Virus record (IMG/VR): IMGVR_UViG_3300031162_000506
Coordinates: 1-26,431 of that record
Reading direction: 5' to 3' (one strand)
DNA length: 26,431 nt
Source: a virus
Both the position numbers and the translations under genes were made by a program. Below, piece by piece: positions 6,993-16,990 of this stretch. The first letter of the stretch is position 1, and each line of letters begins with the position of its first letter. The notes below the pieces were generated by a model. It saw only the letters and a program-made list of their open reading frames with translations, did not search any database and was not told the DNA's origin.

Positions 6993-7757
6993 TTAAAGCA
7001 TTAATGATACTATATCATTATATGATTTCATTTCTTCTAATCCTTTCCTACCCAATAGTTTTTCAATCTTCTTGACTGCCTTTGGATTTGCCTTAGTTTT
7101 CTTTAGTGCACTATATGTTATAGCAACAGCAAGATTAGCATGAGTAGCACCCAACCAAGCAACACTCAACATCCCTCCAGATAAAATACCAGTAGCAAGG
7201 AATAACAACATAGTGTTACCTTGTGGTGATGCAAAATATTCATAGATAGAATAATTGCCAACAAGAGCATCGAACCAGTGACCTATATCCATATCATAGT
7301 TGAAGTTACCAATAAAGGTCATATTCAACCAAGTGTATATAAGGAGTCCTGCAACAACAGGCCCAGTTAGTTTTTTAAGTATTGGGTATTTGTTTAACAC
7401 ATCATCAATCTTCATAGCACCAGACTCGATCTTTTTAAATACCTTTGTCTTATGAAGTTCCTGAAACATTCTTGCTACTTTATCATGAACAAAAGTAGTT
7501 GCATCATTGATTGCCTTTAATATTTTAACTAAAGAGAAACCAAAGTATTTTAATAGTTTGAATACTGCCTTGTCTTTAAACGCACGAACAACATCAATTA
7601 TGGACATTCCCACCTTAGAGATTGTCTTATGTGCTGCACTTATTATACCACCTATCTTACCACGAATAGAAACTTTTGGCAAGGCAATTTCGTTTAAGAG
7701 ATTTTCCTCAAGACAATCAAGGTCATACAGATAGTTTTCGTAAGTGTATTCACGCAT
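6993..7757 (-). CDS. Membrane protein of unknown function, next to M15 peptidase
   Basis: A 254-residue protein. The N-terminal half is amphipathic and Lys-rich; likely membrane segments are near residues 131-151 and 180-203, with a third weaker one near 205-217. Genes of this type beside a peptidoglycan peptidase could encode a holin or a membrane-active virion protein, but no family motif confirms that. L21-N22-E23 near the N-terminus weakly resembles a prohead-protease site, but the following Ile is not typical. It is the last gene of the late minus-strand run. The ATG at 7757 has no good ribosome site. Confidence 0.7.
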   Translation of the reverse strand: MREYTYENYLYDLDCLEENLLNEIALPKVSIRGKIGGIISAAHKTISKVGMSIIDVVRAFKDKAVFKLLKYFGFSLVKILKAINDATTFVHDKVARMFQELHKTKVFKKIESGAMKIDDVLNKYPILKKLTGPVVAGLLIYTWLNMTFIGNFNYDMDIGHWFDALVGNYSIYEYFASPQGNTMLLFLATGILSGGMLSVAWLGATHANLAVAITYSALKKTKANPKAVKKIEKLLGRKGLEEMKSYNDIVSLML

Positions 7758-7768
7758 TTAGATTATTT

Positions 7769-8239
7769 TTATTCCAAGTCCTCTATTGAGATATTCTTGT
7801 AAACAGTCTTGCCTTTTACCTTTGTAGCTGACAGGAAATTTTTACGGTTATCACCTCTCGAATGTGATACATGCACCCATCCGCTATTGGGAATATTCAA
7901 GTCGTGAAACTCAAGTATACATTGATCAAACTCAAGATTTTCTACAATCCATTTAGCAAGTGTTGCATTACTAACACCATGACATTCTATGTCTGCTGCC
8001 TCACCTTTACAGTGTTGACTTGTTGTAGAACCACCGATCTTTTTATTTAGTTCAGGGGAACGATAACCTGATGATATTGTTACACGACCAAAGTGATCAC
8101 GTACAGGTTGTAGTACTTGAATAGCAAGTTCCTTTGCATTTCCAAATTCCTTTGACCCCATAGAGTTATCTATTTCATGTCGTGTCGCGGTTTGACTTTT
8201 AATAAACTCATTGACCGTAAAGTTTCTACTTAGTTTCAT
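7769..8239 (-). CDS. Peptidase M15-type cell wall peptidase (endolysin or virion peptidase)
   Basis: A 156-residue protein of the M15_3 (hedgehog/DD-peptidase) type, which cuts peptide cross-bridges of peptidoglycan. Zinc ligands are visible: H76 and D83 in SQHCKGEAAD, and H123 in GWVHVS; ISSGYRSPELN (55-65) is the usual preceding segment. No signal peptide. Its ATG overlaps the stop of the upstream virion gene (TAATG). Since the gp5 homologue in this window lacks a lysozyme domain, this enzyme may serve entry, lysis or both. Confidence 0.87.
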   Translation of the reverse strand: MKLSRNFTVNEFIKSQTATRHEIDNSMGSKEFGNAKELAIQVLQPVRDHFGRVTISSGYRSPELNKKIGGSTTSQHCKGEAADIECHGVSNATLAKWIVENLEFDQCILEFHDLNIPNSGWVHVSHSRGDNRKNFLSATKVKGKTVYKNISIEDLE

Positions 8240-9573
8240 TAAAACGCATTATGAAATTTTTTATATTGTTCTGGTGTTAGTTTCTTCTTTGCAGATGCAA
8301 ATAGTTTCTTATCCAACACCATTCTTTTCTTTCCATCAGCATCACTCAAATGTCCTACTTTTTCAACGTTGTCTCTAAGTTTGACATATGCCATATGTAA
8401 TTGCAGTTCTTTTATTATAGTAGCACCTTTGATTCTTGCCCCTGTGTGGTTGTTTTGATCTGTAAGTTGTGCAATCTTTTTAACCATTGTGTTGAAGTCT
8501 TTATCTGAGATACCTTCATCAATAGTTTCTTCTTTAGAAAATACAGGTTTACTGATAACACGAATACCTTTAACTGGATCATATTGTAGTTTTAACGCAT
8601 TAGTGATTCCGTCTCTATTCATAATTTGAAGGTCGACCGTTGTTTGATCACCACCAATAGCTGCTAAATTCCACTCAGAACCATATTCTTTCTTAACAAA
8701 TTTAGATATAGCATTATATGCTTTATCGTCCAACATTTCATATTTATCATATTTTTTTTGTTGACGATTACCTTTCCATTTATTATAGAGGTCTGCAATT
8801 TTACCTTCATCAATAGTTTCTTCTTTTGCCATCTTAGTTGCAGTACCATACATAACAGACTTTGCTTTATCACCATACCTCTTTTCAAAACCACTCTTGT
8901 CTTTCTTCATCCCCTTTACATAATCTTCTTTCTTCTTTTCTTCATCACCGGAAAGAGGACGTTCATCAAGTATTTCTTCTTCCTTCATATTGGTTTTACC
9001 AATAATCTTACGTGCTTTGTTGAGAACTCTCTTAGGGTCTATAGGTTGACCATACTTTTTATTAGGTTCACCCACTACACCCATCTTAGGTTGCTTCTTT
9101 GACCAATGGACATTACCATCAGTACCAGCAACGGCAGAACCAGTTGCATTAGTAGGTGCATCTTCTTTAATGTTTTTCTTTAGTTTATCTGCTTCCATTA
9201 TATCTTTAAATGTTTTTCTTTTGTCTGAGTTTTCCATGATAGTTTCCATTTCTTCGTAAATACGTTCTTTAAGATAATTTTCATCATCAATTAGATGAAA
9301 GGGTATAGTCTCACATTCTTTAATAAGGAATAATGCAGCAGCATAACTTGATACCTTTGAATGTAAACCAAATTTAGCAAGCAATCTTTTAATGTTAAAG
9401 ATAAGACGGTTGTACGGATTGTACGCATCTTTTTCTTCTGAACCACTGGGTTTCTTTAACAACTTCCCTTTATCATCAATGATGCCTAATTTAAAAGCAT
9501 CAGTTTCTTCCCACGGAATTGCGAGTCTACGAATAAACTCATAGACTAGATATAGGTCGAGTGCTTTTCCCAT
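8239..9573 (-). CDS. Virion/internal protein with prohead-protease-like sites
   Basis: A 444-residue protein resembling conserved structural proteins of marine T4-like phages; no enzymatic motif. The N-terminal ~130 residues look folded; the middle and C-terminal parts are charged and modular. Three sites fit the T4 gp21 protease pattern (I/L-x-E followed by a small residue, loosely): ILDE204-R, TIDE256-G and TIDE353-G. The last two are within an exact 25-base DNA repeat (8511-8535 and 8802-8826). This suggests a protein cleaved during head maturation. Start overlaps the upstream stop (TAATG) and has AAGGA before it. Confidence 0.75.
   Translation of the reverse strand: MGKALDLYLVYEFIRRLAIPWEETDAFKLGIIDDKGKLLKKPSGSEEKDAYNPYNRLIFNIKRLLAKFGLHSKVSSYAAALFLIKECETIPFHLIDDENYLKERIYEEMETIMENSDKRKTFKDIMEADKLKKNIKEDAPTNATGSAVAGTDGNVHWSKKQPKMGVVGEPNKKYGQPIDPKRVLNKARKIIGKTNMKEEEILDERPLSGDEEKKKEDYVKGMKKDKSGFEKRYGDKAKSVMYGTATKMAKEETIDEGKIADLYNKWKGNRQQKKYDKYEMLDDKAYNAISKFVKKEYGSEWNLAAIGGDQTTVDLQIMNRDGITNALKLQYDPVKGIRVISKPVFSKEETIDEGISDKDFNTMVKKIAQLTDQNNHTGARIKGATIIKELQLHMAYVKLRDNVEKVGHLSDADGKKRMVLDKKLFASAKKKLTPEQYKKFHNAF
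8511..8826 (-). repeat. 25-bp direct repeat encoding KEETIDEG
   Basis: Identical copies at 8511-8535 and 8802-8826 within the internal protein gene. Each encodes KEETIDEG, a candidate cleavage linker, separating segments of about 97 residues. Confidence 0.85.
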
Positions 9574-11102: not shown

Positions 11103-12041
11103 TTATCTTTCTGTTTCGGCATTACACGCTTGCATGAACTTTGCTTTGTTGAATCTTGGATTTGATTGTGCAAAAATTTCTGCTGCTACTTCTGCCATTG
11201 AACTACGTTCTGTGCTATTTGATATACGTTTAATACCATTGGCAAACTCTTGAAAGTGTTGACGAGTCATTGCTGCTTCATCAAGAACTTCTTCTGCAAG
11301 ATTCCAACCTTTCTTTTTATATTGATTCCATTCAGTCTTTTTAATTCTTTTAACTTTATGTCCAGATGGTTCAACAACTAACATAGTACCATCATCTTTA
11401 GAACTTGTACCTTCACTAAGTGCTGCCTCTAATTGTTTAGGAGTCGCACCTAACTTTCTAGCACTATTGGCAAGTTTTAACTTTGCCTGAGAACCCTTTG
11501 CCTTTTTAATTTGAGCAAGAACATCCCCAACCTTTTCTTCATTTATCTTTTTTTTAAACTTTAAAGGGTCACCAGATAACTCAGAAGTACCTTGTTTATG
11601 GGTTGCTTTTTCTCCATTCTTTTTATCCTGTGGACGATTATGTTTGTCCATCTCTGCTAACTTCTTACGATGTGCAACAAGTTTTTGAATACCTGTTGAT
11701 TCACTACAAGAACCTTCTTTATCCTCATCTTCATCTTTAGGATCAACTTTTACATCGTCAGGTTTACCACCTTTCTTATAAGGCTTGTCCTCATCCTTTT
11801 CTTCCTTTGCTACTGCCTTTGTGATTGCCTTTCTTTTATTGTGAAGAAATTTATCAGAAGAATCAGAATCACCATCATTGTCGATATCTTTGTCATCACG
11901 GTCATCAAAATCTTTTTTAACTTCATCTTTGTCAACAGAATCAAGTTTCTTTTCATTCATAACCGCAAGAACTGTGTTCAAAAGATCATCAGAAATACCC
12001 ATTGTGTTTTGGTATTCTTTTGTTGTTGTATAATTTTTCAT
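11103..12041 (-). CDS. Acidic internal/virion protein with EF-hand-like loop and protease sites
   Basis: A 312-residue, highly charged protein. Residues 52-66 (DIDNDGDSDSSDKFL) form an EF-hand/dockerin-like calcium loop followed by HNKRKA, a segment common in marine T4-like structural proteins. Two sites fit the T4 gp21 consensus: LSE210-G and LDE255-A. The C-terminal segment after the second site (AAMTRQHFQEFANGIKRI) looks like a small helical domain. Suggests a head core or internal protein that is cut during maturation. Late promoter TATAAATA and AGGA lie upstream. Confidence 0.75.
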   Translation of the reverse strand: MKNYTTTKEYQNTMGISDDLLNTVLAVMNEKKLDSVDKDEVKKDFDDRDDKDIDNDGDSDSSDKFLHNKRKAITKAVAKEEKDEDKPYKKGGKPDDVKVDPKDEDEDKEGSCSESTGIQKLVAHRKKLAEMDKHNRPQDKKNGEKATHKQGTSELSGDPLKFKKKINEEKVGDVLAQIKKAKGSQAKLKLANSARKLGATPKQLEAALSEGTSSKDDGTMLVVEPSGHKVKRIKKTEWNQYKKKGWNLAEEVLDEAAMTRQHFQEFANGIKRISNSTERSSMAEVAAEIFAQSNPRFNKAKFMQACNAETER

Positions 12042-12071: not shown

Positions 12072-12079
12072 TATTTATA
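12072..12079 (-). promoter_or_regulatory. Late promoter TATAAATA
   Basis: Exact match, overlapping the stop codon of the nucleotidylyltransferase gene and about 31 bases before ATG 12041. Confidence 0.7.
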
Positions 12080-13178
12080 AACCAAGTATCTTCGACAATG
12101 CTGGACGCACTGTTCTTTCTGGAATAAGTGTTGCTGGCTTGCTGGTAGTCACTTCCGTTTGTTCGTTCTGATTAGTGTTCAATCTAAATGACTTTAGACG
12201 TTCCTTCTCAGCAACCTTTACTTTTGGAAGTAGTTTCCTTGCTAAAGCAGCAACTTTACCAGAGTGCTTCTCTACAATTTTATCTATTGCCATTTTCTGA
12301 GAAACTGAAAGATTAACGTAATTGGCTCCTACTTTTCCCGCAACTCTTGTACGGACGATCTTGAGTGCGGCCTTTCGTGCACGCTTCTCTAAATTCTCAC
12401 CTGTTGCCATACGTTTTTTTTTCATTTCTCTTTTCTTGGCCATTCTTGGTGCAAGACGTTTCATTGTTCTTGCCCTTTTCTTTCTTGCTTGTAGACTAAG
12501 CACCTCGTTTACTTCATCATAATCTTCTTCTTGCATGTTATCATACATGTCTTGTAATATTTCATCTGATATATAGAAGTCTTTATCTTCTATTATAATA
12601 TCATCTATGTTTTCTTCTACTTCATAATCTTCAAGTAGTTTCTTAAGTTTATTGAATAATTGTTTGCCCTTCACATTATCATGCCCTGCTAATCCTTTAG
12701 GCAATCCCTTATGGAACTTGTCAAAATCATTTGCCTTTGCCAATGCTCTCATCTTGGAAGCAGATAAACCAGAAACACCTTCCGCATCTGGATCACGATC
12801 ACCAGCAGATAGTATTCTTATACTCTTGAATTTATATTCTCTGTTGTTATAGTTATTGAGAAGTCTACGAAATTCTTCCACACGATCAGAACCAACAATC
12901 ATATATACTTCATCAGTATCTTCATTAATCTTTTTAAGAATGTCAATGATTGTTTTACGACCAGACCGTTTAATGACAGACCCAAATGCAATCTGTGCAA
13001 ACCCTAGTTTAGTTCTGTAGTCAAGAGGATTTTTCTTACGGTCTTTGGTGTGTGATAGATAGACACGTGCATCACCCCCAACAGTACGAGCAATTTCATA
13101 AACTTTATTAATAAGTTTTTCGTGCCCGGCTGTCGGTGGGTTCATTCTACCAAATGTGAATACTACTGGTTTAGACAT
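12075..13178 (-). CDS. NMNAT/cytidylyltransferase-like enzyme fused to a basic phage domain
   Basis: A 367-residue, two-part protein. Residues 1-160 are a nucleotidylyltransferase fold: TAGH at 16-19 (the T/HxGH nucleotide site), VGSDRVEEF at 95-103 and GLSASKMR at 137-144 (the ISSTxxR-like motif). This family joins a nucleotide to a phosphorylated partner (for example NAD synthesis), but the substrate is not evident. After an acidic linker, residues from about 225 form a Lys/Arg-rich domain (SLQARKKRARTMKRL to KERLKSF) seen in many marine T4-like virion proteins, likely binding DNA or the head interior. It overlaps the upstream gene by eight bases. Confidence 0.82.
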   Translation of the reverse strand: MSKPVVFTFGRMNPPTAGHEKLINKVYEIARTVGGDARVYLSHTKDRKKNPLDYRTKLGFAQIAFGSVIKRSGRKTIIDILKKINEDTDEVYMIVGSDRVEEFRRLLNNYNNREYKFKSIRILSAGDRDPDAEGVSGLSASKMRALAKANDFDKFHKGLPKGLAGHDNVKGKQLFNKLKKLLEDYEVEENIDDIIIEDKDFYISDEILQDMYDNMQEEDYDEVNEVLSLQARKKRARTMKRLAPRMAKKREMKKKRMATGENLEKRARKAALKIVRTRVAGKVGANYVNLSVSQKMAIDKIVEKHSGKVAALARKLLPKVKVAEKERLKSFRLNTNQNEQTEVTTSKPATLIPERTVRPALSKILGL

Positions 13179-13743
13179 TTTTAGTTTCTATTGCGAATAA
13201 TTTTGAATGTATTTTAGATGCTTCGTTATATAACTTCTTAACTTCTGGATTGCTAGACTTTTGTATAGCAGTAAGTGCCACAACATATTGTCTGCGAATT
13301 TTTGTCACTTCTGAATCAATACCTTCCTTGACAACCCCTGCTTTCTTCAAAGCACTGTGCATACCTGTCTTTGATTTTTCTTTGGGTGATGCAATAGTAA
13401 TACGTTCCCCTTTCTTTAACTTCTTTAATAAAGTTCTAAGGTGTCTGCGTTTTTCAATTTGCTTTGGGTGCATACCTGCTTTTACTAGCATTTGATTATG
13501 TGCAGACTCCATACCAGACTTAAAATCTTTTGCCGTGAACTTCTTCCAATCTGTACGAGGACGCATACCGTTACCTTCCTTGTAGAAATCAGAATACATT
13601 GATCTCATTGCATCGGTTGCAATTTCATTATCCTTATAGTTCTTTTTGCCGTTTAGGTAATCTTCTGCTGCTTGCCATTGTTTACCGTATTCTGGATCAG
13701 CAAAGCTTTCTCCAAGTCCTAATATTTGTTTTATTGTTTTCAT
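13171..13743 (-). CDS. Basic protein with capsid-targeting-like N-terminus
   Basis: A 190-residue basic protein of unknown function. The start MKTIKQILGLGES resembles the T4 internal-protein targeting peptide MKTYQEFIAEA, with a possible protease site at LGE12-S13; VKEG occurs again near residue 138. The centre (KKLKKGERITIASP) is strongly basic. No catalytic motif found. ATG 13743 lies five bases after GATAAATA, a near late-promoter match, so its transcript could be leaderless. It overlaps the next gene, the nucleotidylyltransferase, suggesting joint expression. Confidence 0.72.
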   Translation of the reverse strand: MKTIKQILGLGESFADPEYGKQWQAAEDYLNGKKNYKDNEIATDAMRSMYSDFYKEGNGMRPRTDWKKFTAKDFKSGMESAHNQMLVKAGMHPKQIEKRRHLRTLLKKLKKGERITIASPKEKSKTGMHSALKKAGVVKEGIDSEVTKIRRQYVVALTAIQKSSNPEVKKLYNEASKIHSKLFAIETKNV

Positions 13744-13748
13744 AGTTC

Positions 13749-13756
13749 TATTTATC
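13749..13756 (-). promoter_or_regulatory. Candidate late promoter GATAAATA
   Basis: Seven of eight match to TATAAATA, followed by five bases (GAACT) and ATG 13743. Confidence 0.5.
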
Positions 13757-13759
13757 CTT

Positions 13760-14383
13760 TTACGTCTTTACTGTTTTGACAGTTCCGTCTAATTTGGCAA
13801 AATATGCCTCGAACGTTATATCTGGAAATGATTTTTGAAGTTTTAAAAATACTTTTAAGTTTTCTAGGTTGTCATCAAATAACCTCACTCTACTAAACTT
13901 ACCAGTGTTTAAATAATTTCTAATGATGATTGATTTCTTTGCGGCAGTTCCAGATACATCTGAAATTTTACCAGCACGTTCAACACGTATTTGATCAATG
14001 TCTAATCCATGCTTTCTGAATGTTTGAAGAAATAATTTCTTATCATCAAAGTCACCCCTTGCGGTGACAACTATGATTTTACTATTAGGTTTGTTGGCAA
14101 TGTTCTTTAACATTGCTTTTGCTTTTGCTAACATCTTCCTGATGGGTTTTGACTCATCGTGGAATTTCTTTGAACTTTTAAATTCCCCAAAGTCATACTT
14201 CTCCCCAGACTTTAATTTGTATTCATTATATTCTGCACTGGTAAGTGTCTTTATAACTTTACCATCTTTCAATACCTTAATGACAGCGGTAGTGTGAAAC
14301 AGGGTATCGTCTATATCAAATACAGTAAGACCATTATCTTCTGCTTCTGACATAAACTCTTTGAATGATTTTAGGCTTTCCAT
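13760..14383 (-). CDS. HAD-superfamily phosphatase
   Basis: A 207-residue protein with all HAD motifs: motif I VFDIDDTLFH with nucleophile D23 and acid D25, motif II T107 in VVTARGD, motif III K149/K150, motif IV FDD at 169-171. HAD enzymes of this kind remove phosphates; the neighbourhood of nucleotidyl-transfer enzymes suggests a polynucleotide or nucleotide 3'-phosphatase, by inference. N-terminal MESLKSFKEFMSEAE resembles a capsid-targeting leader with possible cleavage at MSE13-A14. Its ATG lies within the end of the ligase-like gene (13-base overlap). Confidence 0.88.
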   Translation of the reverse strand: MESLKSFKEFMSEAEDNGLTVFDIDDTLFHTTAVIKVLKDGKVIKTLTSAEYNEYKLKSGEKYDFGEFKSSKKFHDESKPIRKMLAKAKAMLKNIANKPNSKIIVVTARGDFDDKKLFLQTFRKHGLDIDQIRVERAGKISDVSGTAAKKSIIIRNYLNTGKFSRVRLFDDNLENLKVFLKLQKSFPDITFEAYFAKLDGTVKTVKT

Positions 14384-15570
14384 TCTTTACCACCCGCACT
14401 GAATAGGTTTGCGGTAAACTCCATCTTGTCAACTAATTTAAATGCCTTGTCGTTGTCTTGTATTGCAACAAACCCCTCATCACCAACAACCTTAAACCCC
14501 TTTCCGGTTTTGAGGAACGTCTTAATGCTTTTCATACTGTCTAGTTTCTTGACTAGTGATGTCTTAATAATGATAACTTGTTCATGCCAATCAAGAACAC
14601 TGATGAAATTATGAGAGAACTTTTTGAGTTCATCCCGCAATACCTTTTCCTTTTCCTTTGTAAATGCTTTTGACTTCTTTCTCTTTTCTTCAACTATCCA
14701 ATTGGCATACTCATTGAAATATTTACGAGGATTACCTATGCCTTGTCCACCCCTAATCTTTTGGTTGTTGAACCTTAACAGTTCTGACATATAAAACTTA
14801 GGTAGTGTTGATAATTTTCCTAATGCAGACTTAATGATGGTTGCTTCTTTTTTAAGTCTTGCATATTGTGAATGTAATTTTGTTGTTTCTCGATCAGAGA
14901 ACGAGGCTATGTTTGTGATGTCTTTAAAATGCGCATCATCGAACCAAACATCCTTTGATGGTTTGAAATCTCTTTTGGTAACATTGAAAGAACCTTTCAT
15001 GTCTAACATTGTCTTTCCAGTGTATCGTGTATGGAACACAATACCGAACTGTGTTCCTTTAATGAAACGCCCTAGACCACTATTCAAAGGAACAGCATAA
15101 GTAATGTTGTTAGGTCTAAATGTAACGTACTTCTCACCATTAATCGTTTCGTTCTTTACCTGACTTTTGATAAACATCATGTCACCTTGAAATACACCTT
15201 TCTTCCATATAGAAGGTAGATACTTCAGTGCTGCCTTTAACTTCTCTGGTAATTCACCCTGCCCACCATGATACTTATCAACATCCTTATCGGTGTAGTT
15301 TATCTTTGGAACACCTTTTGAGAATACTGATTTTGTTCCGACAAAGAACTTCCCGTTCTCTGGATTAATCCCACCAATAATAGCTGGTGCACCATCCCAC
15401 TTACGGGTAACAATAGTTTCTTCATTGATACTCATCAACTGAAACATTGCCTCAATGAACCTCAACACATCATCAACACCATCCTTACCATTAATGATAA
15501 TACTATCTTCCAAGTGGGTTAGATGAGTATTTTTACTCTCATTTAACATTAATTGTATTAATCTACTCAT
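14371..15570 (-). CDS. Ligase-like nucleotidyltransferase (KxDG) of a T4-like phage family (DUF6267-like)
   Basis: A 399-residue protein resembling a conserved uncharacterised family of marine T4-like phages, which I believe is DUF6267. It carries ligase/capping-enzyme-like signatures in order: K57-WDG (motif I, lysine that would take AMP), FVGTKS near 76-81, FQGDMMF 127-133 (motif III position), EGFV 365-368 and KLVDKMEF 378-385 (like motifs IV and V). The large insert between III and IV is unusual, so activity is inference. The N-terminus MSRLIQLMLNES has a protease-like site LNE11-S12. Starts on the stop of the Pol-beta-like gene (TAATG). Confidence 0.75.
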   Translation of the reverse strand: MSRLIQLMLNESKNTHLTHLEDSIIINGKDGVDDVLRFIEAMFQLMSINEETIVTRKWDGAPAIIGGINPENGKFFVGTKSVFSKGVPKINYTDKDVDKYHGGQGELPEKLKAALKYLPSIWKKGVFQGDMMFIKSQVKNETINGEKYVTFRPNNITYAVPLNSGLGRFIKGTQFGIVFHTRYTGKTMLDMKGSFNVTKRDFKPSKDVWFDDAHFKDITNIASFSDRETTKLHSQYARLKKEATIIKSALGKLSTLPKFYMSELLRFNNQKIRGGQGIGNPRKYFNEYANWIVEEKRKKSKAFTKEKEKVLRDELKKFSHNFISVLDWHEQVIIIKTSLVKKLDSMKSIKTFLKTGKGFKVVGDEGFVAIQDNDKAFKLVDKMEFTANLFSAGGKEWKA

Positions 15571-16451
15571 TAGTAATTTTTAAGTTCCTTTGGCAATGTC
15601 AATCCCTGTATACCACGTATCTTATCAGCAGCAGTTTTTAATATTTCTTTTTTCTTATTCTTATATAAGAAATCTTTATGATCAAGTATTCTAACAAGTG
15701 ACTCAAATGAGTTTGCATCATCTGGTGTGAACTTAGTACCCAACACTAAGTCTATAATCTTTTGTGGTTGGTCTGCAACAACCTTAGTTGCAATAGTCTT
15801 TTTCTTACTAAGTAACTTACCCGTCTTACCAATTCGAGTTTGGATTCCGCGTATCAATCCTCTTTTTACATCCATAAAGTTTCGTTCAAACTCTACGGGG
15901 ATTTCTTCCCCTTCCTTATTGAATCCAGTTTTGATTGTTTTGAAGTCCATAGAACTTGCAATAGAACTCAACATAATATTACGATATAGTCCCTTGTATT
16001 TTGAAGTCATTGCTGATGGACTCCAGAATGTGAAACGTGCCAAGTCCATATCATTGACCAACATTAAGTCAAGTTGTACATATTTGTTTTTCTGATTTGC
16101 GATAGGCCATGCAACTGAAACAGTACCAAATCCAGCAAGTATTGCAGTTTGTTTAACCAATGGTCTTACCTTTGCCTCTACCACTTTATATAAATCAGCA
16201 GGGTCATTGATATTCAACAGATATATTAATCTGTGTGCATCAATGGCAAGATCAATATCTCCACTTGTTTCACCTTCTCGTTTCTTACCCGCACTACCAA
16301 GTAGTGTTGTTTCTTTTTTGGTGATGCCAAGTTTAGGTAGTAACTTCTTTTCAATGTCTTTCATTGTATCTGCGACATCTTCCTGACGAATACGACTAGA
16401 TACCGTGATAGCATTACCACCTTCGTTTATGAGTTGTTTGAATGTTTTCAT
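15570..16451 (-). CDS. Pol-beta-like nucleotidyltransferase with capsid-targeting-like N-terminus
   Basis: A 293-residue protein. The nucleotidyltransferase core is seen as LLGSAG (50-55), the metal-binding pair D65-I-D67, and a third acid D128 in VQLDLML. This fold covers poly(A)/CCA-adding enzymes, tRNA or antibiotic nucleotidyltransferases and DNA polymerase beta; the substrate is not known. MKTFKQLINEGG at the N-terminus aligns residue for residue with T4 IPIII MKTYQEFIAEA, including the protease site at position 10 (INE10-G11). Coupled at both ends by TAATG with its neighbours. Confidence 0.82.
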   Translation of the reverse strand: MKTFKQLINEGGNAITVSSRIRQEDVADTMKDIEKKLLPKLGITKKETTLLGSAGKKREGETSGDIDLAIDAHRLIYLLNINDPADLYKVVEAKVRPLVKQTAILAGFGTVSVAWPIANQKNKYVQLDLMLVNDMDLARFTFWSPSAMTSKYKGLYRNIMLSSIASSMDFKTIKTGFNKEGEEIPVEFERNFMDVKRGLIRGIQTRIGKTGKLLSKKKTIATKVVADQPQKIIDLVLGTKFTPDDANSFESLVRILDHKDFLYKNKKKEILKTAADKIRGIQGLTLPKELKNY

Positions 16452-16990
16452 TATGCTACTGATTGATCTAATATGGCAACGTGTTTAAGAAGTCGTTTCT
16501 TTTTAGTGCCAGATGCAATTGATGTGATTGTTTCTTTTACTTTCTTGATTGCTTCCTTAAATGCCTCAACATATCCCTTTGCCTTTGTTACGTGTGACTT
16601 AAGATTGACCATTAAATCCCAACCAGTTACAGCATCAATGAAATGTATCGGCCCAGTTACCACGTGCATTGTTGCCAAGTCCAACTTATAAAGAAAATCC
16701 ACCACCTGTTCTTTTTCAATACTGTTGGCAATCTGTTTAATCTTTGCACGATCACCTTTAACGGCAGCAAGTATCATTTGACCAGCACCCTTTGTAAAAT
16801 CCGCGACGTAATTAATAAGACCTTTACCTTTGTGTAATTTAAGACCCGCCTTGCCCAACCAATCATTAACACCTTCGGTTAATTCACTTTCGGTGTGTTC
16901 GTGTTCGTTCTCCAACACATAAAGCAAAAGATGTATATCCTCTTGCATTTCTTCTATGATAGATTTTCTTTGTTTATATGGTAACAACAT
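16451..16990 (-). CDS. Helical late protein of unknown function
   Basis: A 179-residue, largely helical and Lys-rich protein without a recognisable family. LTE39-G40 fits a prohead-protease site after a 39-residue acidic N-terminal part, so it might also be a processed head-interior protein. A mildly hydrophobic stretch near residues 68-80 (GAGQMILAAVKG) is too short to call membrane. Coupled by TAATG to the 78-residue gene upstream and to the Pol-beta-like gene downstream. Confidence 0.68.
   Translation of the reverse strand: MLLPYKQRKSIIEEMQEDIHLLLYVLENEHEHTESELTEGVNDWLGKAGLKLHKGKGLINYVADFTKGAGQMILAAVKGDRAKIKQIANSIEKEQVVDFLYKLDLATMHVVTGPIHFIDAVTGWDLMVNLKSHVTKAKGYVEAFKEAIKKVKETITSIASGTKKKRLLKHVAILDQSVA

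Follow-up and report, generated by a model that had tools for sequence, protein, structure and literature searches.

A probable head-cargo gene set with T4-type leaders in an uncultivated phage genome fragment

Why should neighboring genes for unrelated enzymes begin with nearly the same short peptide? The question is raised by the window analyzed here, the whole 26,431-nucleotide stretch of IMG/VR record IMGVR_UViG_3300031162_000506, from a phage known from sequence alone. We read the locus as a head-cargo gene set of a T4-like phage, in which leader-tagged enzymes would be packaged, trimmed, and delivered with the DNA, and we place the probability of this reading at roughly 0.8. An initial annotation had proposed adjacent, coupled genes whose products carry leaders ending in Glu. 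That layout is borne out, with all genes on the minus strand and overlapping or closely spaced, and the five Glu residues named (E10, E11, E13, E12, and E39) lie where they were placed. The features are as follows, with an arrow marking each predicted cut.

15570..16451 (−): Pol-beta-superfamily nucleotidyltransferase gene, 293 aa, GSAGKK...SGDIDLAI (AlphaFold, Foldseek, relatives)
16422..16451 (−): its leader MKTFKQLINE, then GGNAI; predicted cut after E10
14371..15570 (−): DUF6267/phrog_455 KxDG protein with ligase-like motifs K57xDG, QGD130, E365G, and K378LVD (Pfam, PHROG, invariant residues)
15538..15570 (−): its leader MSRLIQLMLNE, then SKNTH; predicted cut after E11
13760..14383 (−): HAD-superfamily phosphatase-like gene, FDIDDT and VVTARG (phrog_415, relatives in DUF6267 loci)
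14345..14383 (−): its leader MESLKSFKEFMSE, then AEDNG; predicted cut after E13
12075..13178 (−): HxGH-family (NMNAT/cytidylyltransferase-like) protein with a C-terminal basic domain and without an N-terminal leader (phrog_3041, phrog_395)
12504..12512 (−): internal VNE(225)↓V site of this protein, at the basic-domain junction (same junction position in C48C1 and DLP6)
13171..13743 (−): small basic protein, family unassigned
13708..13743 (−): its leader-like start MKTIKQILGLGE, then SFAD (E12); weaker fit with a two-residue shift (sequence only)
16451..16990 (−): 179 aa protein with a late site, ...ESELTE↓GVND (E39); weak candidate (same basis)
8239..9573 (−): multi-site protein with repeated KEETIDE↓G (residues 256 and 353); possible co-packaged polyprotein
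11103..12041 (−): acidic/basic multi-site protein, LSE210↓G and LDE255↓A; relatives at the same locus in other phages

The leader in the window and its relatives

In the T4 IPIII leader, residues 4 and 7 serve targeting and residues 8 and 10 processing, with cleavage after L/I-x-E (PMC9026906). T4 IPII and IPIII both begin MKTYQEFIAEA in the genome sequence (NC_000866), so the comparison first drawn with MKTFKQLINEG is correct. Three window genes fit the T4 type, an N-terminal leader of 10-20 residues with hydrophobic or aromatic residues at 4 and 7, an aliphatic residue at 8, and Glu at P1. The leader-like start of the basic protein and the E39 site fit the T4 rule poorly and appear to be weak candidates; searches of Pfam, PHROG, and the relatives' loci found no family match for the basic protein.

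We scored a T4-type leader pattern (hydrophobic-x-x-hydrophobic-aliphatic-x-E, with the Glu at residue 8-16) and a strict motif, [FYW]xx[FYW][LIM]xE, which on the T4 control recovers IPII, IPIII, and one false positive. The pattern occurs in 3 of the 33 called genes of the window versus 0.6 expected from shuffles, and all three belong to the set described here. Counts of the bare L/I-x-E↓A/G/S motif per protein were not enriched in the window and are uninformative, and a loose leader motif was not enriched genome-wide in S-SM1, HTVC008M, or Melnitz; enrichment is confined to position plus the strict form.

Single-protein queries against viral contigs found no relatives, while alignment queries recovered them. 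The T4-type pattern is present in 54/77 DUF6267 members (80 IMG/VR loci), and in the 58 aligned proteins the leader has F/L/Y at position 4 (54/56), L/I at P3 (55/56), and the scissile Glu (55/57). About 30% of DUF6267 relatives miss the pattern; in some the chosen start codon or a displaced leader accounts for this, and others are truly leaderless. Among 32 aligned Pol-beta relatives, E10 is kept in 29/30 and L/I/V at P3 in 29/30; their leaderless counterparts (Lak, Phosso, and L110, including jumbo-phage proteins) start with MGG or MSG, that is, at the predicted cut. The strict motif marks 46/78 DUF6267 proteins and 24/484 neighbor proteins from 11 families, against 0.16% per protein expected from internal sequence. 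Across three complete genomes it marks 3/573 genes, every one at the DUF6267-type locus. Leaders are near-identical in loci L123, L104, and L062, and the tag is shared by unrelated folds (HAD, NMNAT-like, P-loop kinases, and SAM hydrolase), spanning the 11 families near DUF6267 and the S-CREM2 cargo. The leader signal is thus modest in the window alone and, with relatives, strong and far beyond chance. The initial annotation had named a lack of leader conservation at homologous N-termini as one refuting outcome; the aligned relatives did not refute it on this count.

Cleavage junctions and virion proteomes

In the mechanism we propose, each tagged enzyme would carry a capsid-targeting leader of 10-13 residues (M-K-x-F-x-x-[F/Y/L]-[L/I]-x-E). 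This leader would bind the prohead core, and the enzyme would be closed up inside. Cleavage after the leader Glu by a gp21-type protease of the phage would follow, and the mature enzyme would enter the cell together with the DNA. The analysis directly shows the leader, its conservation, its modularity, and, through published proteomics, leader-bearing relatives in virions. Loading and trimming are likely; gp21 cleavage, ejection, and a function for the cargo are inferred. A gp21 gene was not found in the window, a 26 kb fragment; gp21-type proteases are annotated in the genomes of S-SM1, HTVC008M, Melnitz, S-CREM2, and S-SCSM1.

Candidate cleavage sites also occur within proteins. The NMNAT-like protein begins MSKPVVFTFGRMNPP, with no leader at its N-terminus, and its VNE(225)↓V junction matches a stand-alone leader in C48C1 (VSE↓VLDATQRRK) and a fused site in DLP6 (LTE↓ALNAQQRQK). 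For the P-loop kinase domain, x-x-E↓G immediately precedes the domain in 13/13 cases, whether stand-alone or polyprotein-internal.

Evidence on virion presence comes from published proteomes of relatives, mainly for the NMNAT relative. This relative, homologous to the 12075-13178 gene, was detected in purified virions of four cyanophages and carries a canonical leader in 4/4: S-SM1 (MKKFSAFLNE↓A), S-SZBM1 (MRFRQFIIE↓A), S-CREM2 (MKNFSSFLTE↓A), and S-SCSM1 (MKSFLQFLKE↓A). The window copy, in contrast, begins without a leader. The leader would supply a mechanism for the virion presence of the cyanophage enzyme; in the accessible portions of the papers reporting it, we saw no leader mentioned. 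The leaderless DUF6267 protein of S-SZBM1 is not listed in the published virion proteome. In S-CREM2, the SAM hydrolase, kinase, Cas9-like nuclease, and gp13 are all virion-detected and all leader-bearing, and genome-wide the strict motif occurs in 3/52 detected versus 0/163 undetected proteins (Fisher p 0.014); with a looser motif the same test is not significant (p 0.09). CsCl-purified virions may hold contaminants, according to the authors in the available text of PMC10665884, and two of the cyanophage virion papers, as far as their accessible text goes, leave carry-over contamination possible.

The leaders are predicted to be helical, as would be expected if they were mere N-terminal helices aiding assembly or solubility in infected cells, on proteins that are never packaged. 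We consider this very improbable, given the same tag on unrelated folds, a nearly invariant P1 Glu, sites at polyprotein junctions, and leader-bearing relatives in the virions of four phages. Head targeting and trimming, as first proposed, is instead well supported by leader conservation, modularity, leaderless starts at the cut, polyprotein junctions, and the relatives' virion proteomes. Because neighboring genes share the T4 head-loading tag, phages of this family probably send a few enzymes that handle nucleotides and nucleic acids into the cell along with their DNA.

Candidate substrates of the cargo

The AlphaFold model of the Pol-beta protein has a pLDDT of 93 and falls below 50 only at residues 1-10, exactly the leader. 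Foldseek places DNA polymerases beta and lambda at the top (probability 1.00, TM about 0.4), and G52 S53, D65, D67, and D128 (GS motif and DxD) are invariant in relatives, supporting a predicted Pol-beta nucleotidyltransferase fold for the 15570-16451 product. Membership in RlaP (PF10127) was rejected, as a Pfam match is absent at E 1, versus 4.6e-12 for the T4 nrdC.11 control.

The 14371-15570 product matches Pfam DUF6267 (E 4.7e-96) and phrog_455 (8e-90). Across 58 sequences, K57 D59 G60, G129 D130, E365 G366, and K378 are invariant, giving motifs I (KxDG), III, IV (EG), and V in order; its AlphaFold model has low pLDDT at residues 1-15. The protein also contains a helical insertion at residues 226-344. 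Fold and profile searches gave no significant PDB match to a ligase, and the family profile did not match T4 Rnl2, T4 DNA ligase, or the Phosso KxDG protein. The only ligase matches in a BFVD structure search were weak, sub-threshold RNA ligases. DUF6267 was accordingly not assigned to the covalent nucleotidyltransferases (RNA/DNA ligases), and its suggested ligase identity derives from the motifs and gene pairing: a ligase-like gene lies within two genes of Pol-beta in 23/140 cases versus 7/387 elsewhere (p 5e-9).

The HAD protein contains DIDDT, weakly matches the phrog_415 polynucleotide kinase (7.6e-8), and has no Pfam match above cutoff; its relatives occur in DUF6267 loci, with leaders there too (e.g., METFGEFLTE↓G and MQLFEEYIYE↓S). 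The NMNAT-like protein matches phrog_3041 (cytidyltransferase, 2.8e-62) and phrog_395 and contains TAGHEKL and GLSASKMR (HxGH and SSxxxR-like), with CTP_transf_like and TIGR00125 below their curated cutoffs.

We give even odds that ligase-like DUF6267, the Pol-beta nucleotidyltransferase, and the HAD phosphatase, with a P-loop kinase in relatives, jointly act on cut nucleic-acid ends. The substrate would probably be RNA, for instance tRNA cleaved by host defense, acted on before phage gene expression, and the HxGH enzyme may provide or regenerate an adenylated cofactor, for example NAD+. Of the end-repair kit originally proposed, the Pol-beta fold and its pairing with KxDG proteins stand, whereas the ligase match is missing, the HAD-PNK match is weak, and the NMNAT-like member suits a role in NAD+ metabolism no less well.

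This metabolic role is a serious competing account, if clearly below an even chance: the same packaging would deliver proteins that restore or shield the pools of NAD+ and nucleotides against NAD+-depleting defense, with DUF6267 and Pol-beta acting on a nucleotide rather than RNA ends. The NMNAT-like protein is the cargo most often detected in virions, and relatives include an NMNAT fused to a zeta-toxin/AAA_33 kinase (L040), resembling NadR, itself an HxGH-kinase fusion, as well as a leader-bearing adenylate kinase (L056) and an NT5C-like HAD (L031); phages do rebuild NAD+ (PMC9503650). This account leaves the conserved Pol-beta/KxDG pairing unexplained, and the NMNAT activity is itself putative, as these proteins could be HxGH transferases of a different kind. 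A role on DNA, in which the cargo would process or join ends and nicks of the genome as it enters, is unlikely. The enzymes would enter with DNA, and Foldseek sets the Pol-beta protein next to DNA repair polymerases, but superfamily matches at TM 0.4 fail to separate DNA, RNA, or nucleotide substrates, and the weak structural neighbors of DUF6267 are RNA ligases.

Relation to known systems

The set resembles T4 IPI-IPIII and Alt in leader length, residues 4/7/8/10, the cut after L/I-x-E, the use of one leader on unrelated proteins, and the presence of gp21 in relatives' genomes. It differs in the phages that carry it, Kyanoviridae-like and some jumbo phages, and in its cargo: in place of small restriction inhibitors there is an enzyme set that recurs, together with multi-domain polyproteins. 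Phage RNA repair, as described in the accessible text of PMC7824862, likewise combines RNA ligase, RlaP Pol-beta nucleotidyltransferase, PNK, and HAD phosphatase, but that text does not describe head packaging, and the window enzyme lacks the RlaP match. Polyvalent proteins and packaged NAD-ADPr enzymes (PMC9503650) are also virion-embedded, often multi-domain, and early-acting; here, by contrast, there are separate genes with T4-type leaders and cleavage-like sites at fusion junctions. Among the open-access papers searched, we found none on DUF6267, and none of those listed for the capsid targeting sequence together with cyanophages covered both.

More broadly, we tentatively propose, at somewhat less than even odds, that many marine T4-like phages, along with some jumbo phages, use a T4-type leader to inject a modular set of enzymes, and that this set includes polyproteins separated at their domain junctions by the prohead protease while still in the head. 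Ligase-like protein, nucleotidyltransferase, HxGH enzyme, kinase, and phosphatase would arrive already processed and mend damage inflicted by the host before transcription starts. The leader would then serve as a readable sequence tag for cargo injected by T4-like phages beyond those of E. coli, bringing scattered reports of enzymes in cyanophage virions under a single mechanism and naming more than ten uncharacterized families as injected candidates. The long-open functions of the cyanophage-core cytidylyltransferase and DUF6267 would thereby become directly testable.

The locus and a leader rule drawn from T4

The window fragment derives from a T4-like phage, its tail-tube-cap-like baseplate gene matching those of T4-like phages; a gp21 gene is absent from its 26,431 bases. 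The genes of the locus, in transcription order, are:

16451-16990, minus strand: 179 aa protein, no assigned family (first)
15570-16451, minus strand: Pol-beta-like nucleotidyltransferase (second)
14371-15570, minus strand: DUF6267 KxDG protein (third)
13760-14383, minus strand: HAD protein (fourth)
13171-13743, minus strand: basic protein (fifth)
12075-13178, minus strand: HxGH NMNAT/cytidylyltransferase-like protein with a basic C-terminal domain (sixth)

The leaders reported in the initial annotation are present at their assigned residues, but those of the basic gene and the 16451-16990 gene are only weak candidates. The HxGH gene has no leader at its own start. Across the window, a T4-type leader is seen in 3 of 33 genes versus 0.6 expected, which is modest evidence, and the rule was therefore drawn from published T4 mutagenesis rather than from these sequences. 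In the IPIII leader, residues 4 and 7 direct targeting and residues 8 and 10 direct processing, with gp21 cutting after L/I-x-E (PMC9026906). As a control, the rule recovered IPII and IPIII among 247 called T4 genes, with one false positive; it missed IPI, which starts MKTFKEF and has no L/I-x-E before residue 19. Elsewhere in the window, the gene at 6993-7757 carries a further possible long leader, MREYTYENYLYDLDCLEENLLNE(23)/I (slash, predicted cut), and a Peptidase M15 domain of endolysin type (7769-8239) adjoins multi-site cargo candidates.

Conservation of the leader and its predicted cut

An alignment query yielded 80 DUF6267 loci from IMG/VR, where gene starts are mechanical calls, with 77 usable DUF6267 genes. 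The comparison of homologous N-termini proposed in the initial annotation bore the leader out: 54 of the 77 begin with one (e.g., MKFTEFLTE/G, MQSFKQYLSE/S). Among 58 aligned sequences, position 4 is F, L or Y in 54/56, P3 is L or I in 55/56, and the P1 Glu is kept in 55/57; P1' is mainly A, S or G, and most remaining leader positions vary. Because the sequences are homologous, these column counts are not independent trials. Neighboring genes provide a more independent test: within four genes, DUF6267 excluded, the strict form [FYW]xx[FYW][LIM]xE occurs in 24 of 484 genes from 11 families, versus 0.16% expected from internal sequence. Its three occurrences in three complete genomes (573 genes) all lie at the DUF6267 locus.

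Among the neighbors with a leader are HAD, HxGH, P-loop kinase, adenylate kinase and NT5C-like proteins. At L056:4801-5388, L078 and L081, the protein behind the leader MKSFRDFIFE is clearly an adenylate kinase (Pfam ADK, 1.8e-40). One contig (L062:6439-9806) encodes three related genes with near-identical leaders (MKTFKHYLTE, MKTFKGYLTE, MKQFRSYLTE); the one scanned had no Pfam match. At L110:3070-4721, two adjoining leader genes (MHYKDFLFE, MRFSIFLQE) have LYRGT/FYRGD motifs resembling those of ADP-ribosyltransferases and sit near a P-loop kinase and a Pol-beta gene that lacks a leader. In S-PM2 (AJ630128, 9995-11774), two annotated genes appear to share one split DUF6267, half of it spanned by a 'cytidyltransferase' annotation, unlike record LN828717, where DUF6267 is a single match.

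The predicted cut also coincides with domain boundaries. Across 32 Pol-beta relatives, 29 of the 30 rows occupied at this column have the Glu, with G-G or S-G next to it on the mature side, and leaderless relatives (Lak and Phosso jumbo phages, L110) begin MSG/MGG, the exact predicted mature end. AlphaFold models the window Pol-beta protein with pLDDT 93 and low confidence at residues 1-10 only; for the window DUF6267, low confidence falls at residues 1-15 and 393-399. In C48C1 the basic domain forms a gene of its own, with leader VSE/VLDATQRRK; in DLP6 (LTE/ALNAQQRQK) and the window (VNE/VLSLQARKK) it follows the HxGH domain as part of a fusion. Could the leader be nothing more than an N-terminal helix? 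Such a helix would not persist inside a polyprotein, whereas a protease site would, and x-x-E/G immediately precedes the P-loop kinase domain in 13 of 13 copies, 7 stand-alone and 6 within polyproteins (2 of the 6 from near-identical contigs). LLNE/G likewise marks the junction of an HxGH-kinase fusion (L040:18423-21017, L020, L045). This leader-bearing polyprotein, an HxGH domain plus a zeta-toxin-like P-loop kinase, recalls the architecture of NadR.

Leader-bearing proteins in published virion proteomes

Published proteomes of purified particles include the HxGH protein for S-SM1 (MKKFSAFLNE/A; PMC3037559), S-SZBM1 (MRFRQFIIE/A; PMC9146016), S-CREM2 (MKNFSSFLTE/A; PMC10665884) and S-SCSM1 (MKSFLQFLKE/A; PMC9602691). 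Further leaders occur on S-CREM2 proteins reported there as virion-detected: a SAM hydrolase (MKDFDSFLEE), an APH-like kinase (VKRFDAFLTE) and gp13 (MKDLHSFLTE). Two endolysins were detected in these virions as well. The S-SZBM1 DUF6267 gene lacks a leader (MAKNTHLEHLED); its product is not listed in that proteome table, although its leader-bearing neighbor is (PMC9146016). Detection might alternatively reflect carry-over through CsCl purification, as the S-CREM2 (PMC10665884) and S-SCSM1 (PMC9602691) authors raise. Across the S-CREM2 genome, 3 of the 52 detected proteins have the motif and none of the 163 undetected ones does (p 0.014; p 0.09 with a looser motif). We consider it very probable (roughly 0.85) that leader-bearing proteins are packaged and trimmed. 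A Cas9-like protein (L186, 7704-10313), also among the reported S-CREM2 virion proteins, has a leader-like FASFMAE/A near residue 25; together, leader and detection make a virion-delivered Cas9-like nuclease plausible.

Possible functions of the putative cargo

The initial annotation proposed a possible end-repair kit, a reading supported in part: by the Pol-beta assignment, which is backed by fold and invariant catalytic residues, and by the KxDG pairing. Ligase-type motifs are invariant in DUF6267 and stand in the correct order, but profile and PDB fold searches against ligases gave no significant match, and in BFVD its own family came first, followed by RNA ligases at sub-threshold scores only. 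KxDG or DUF6267 proteins are far commoner at up to two genes from Pol-beta (23/140) than elsewhere (7/387; p 5e-9), and different KxDG proteins occupy the place of DUF6267 at loci L104, L105, L110, L112 and L127; this pairing favors the ligase-like reading. Phages are known to combine an RNA ligase with a Pol-beta nucleotidyltransferase, a HAD protein and a kinase for RNA repair (PMC7824862), although the window nucleotidyltransferase was considered as RlaP and rejected. The chances that the cargo performs nucleic-acid end repair appear about even. The presence of the HxGH enzyme, of NMNAT-kinase fusions and of adenylate kinase is just as suggestive of a role in NAD+ or nucleotide metabolism (PMC9503650). 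That its main job is NAD+ metabolism is a more tentative proposal than end repair, and the two are compatible with each other.
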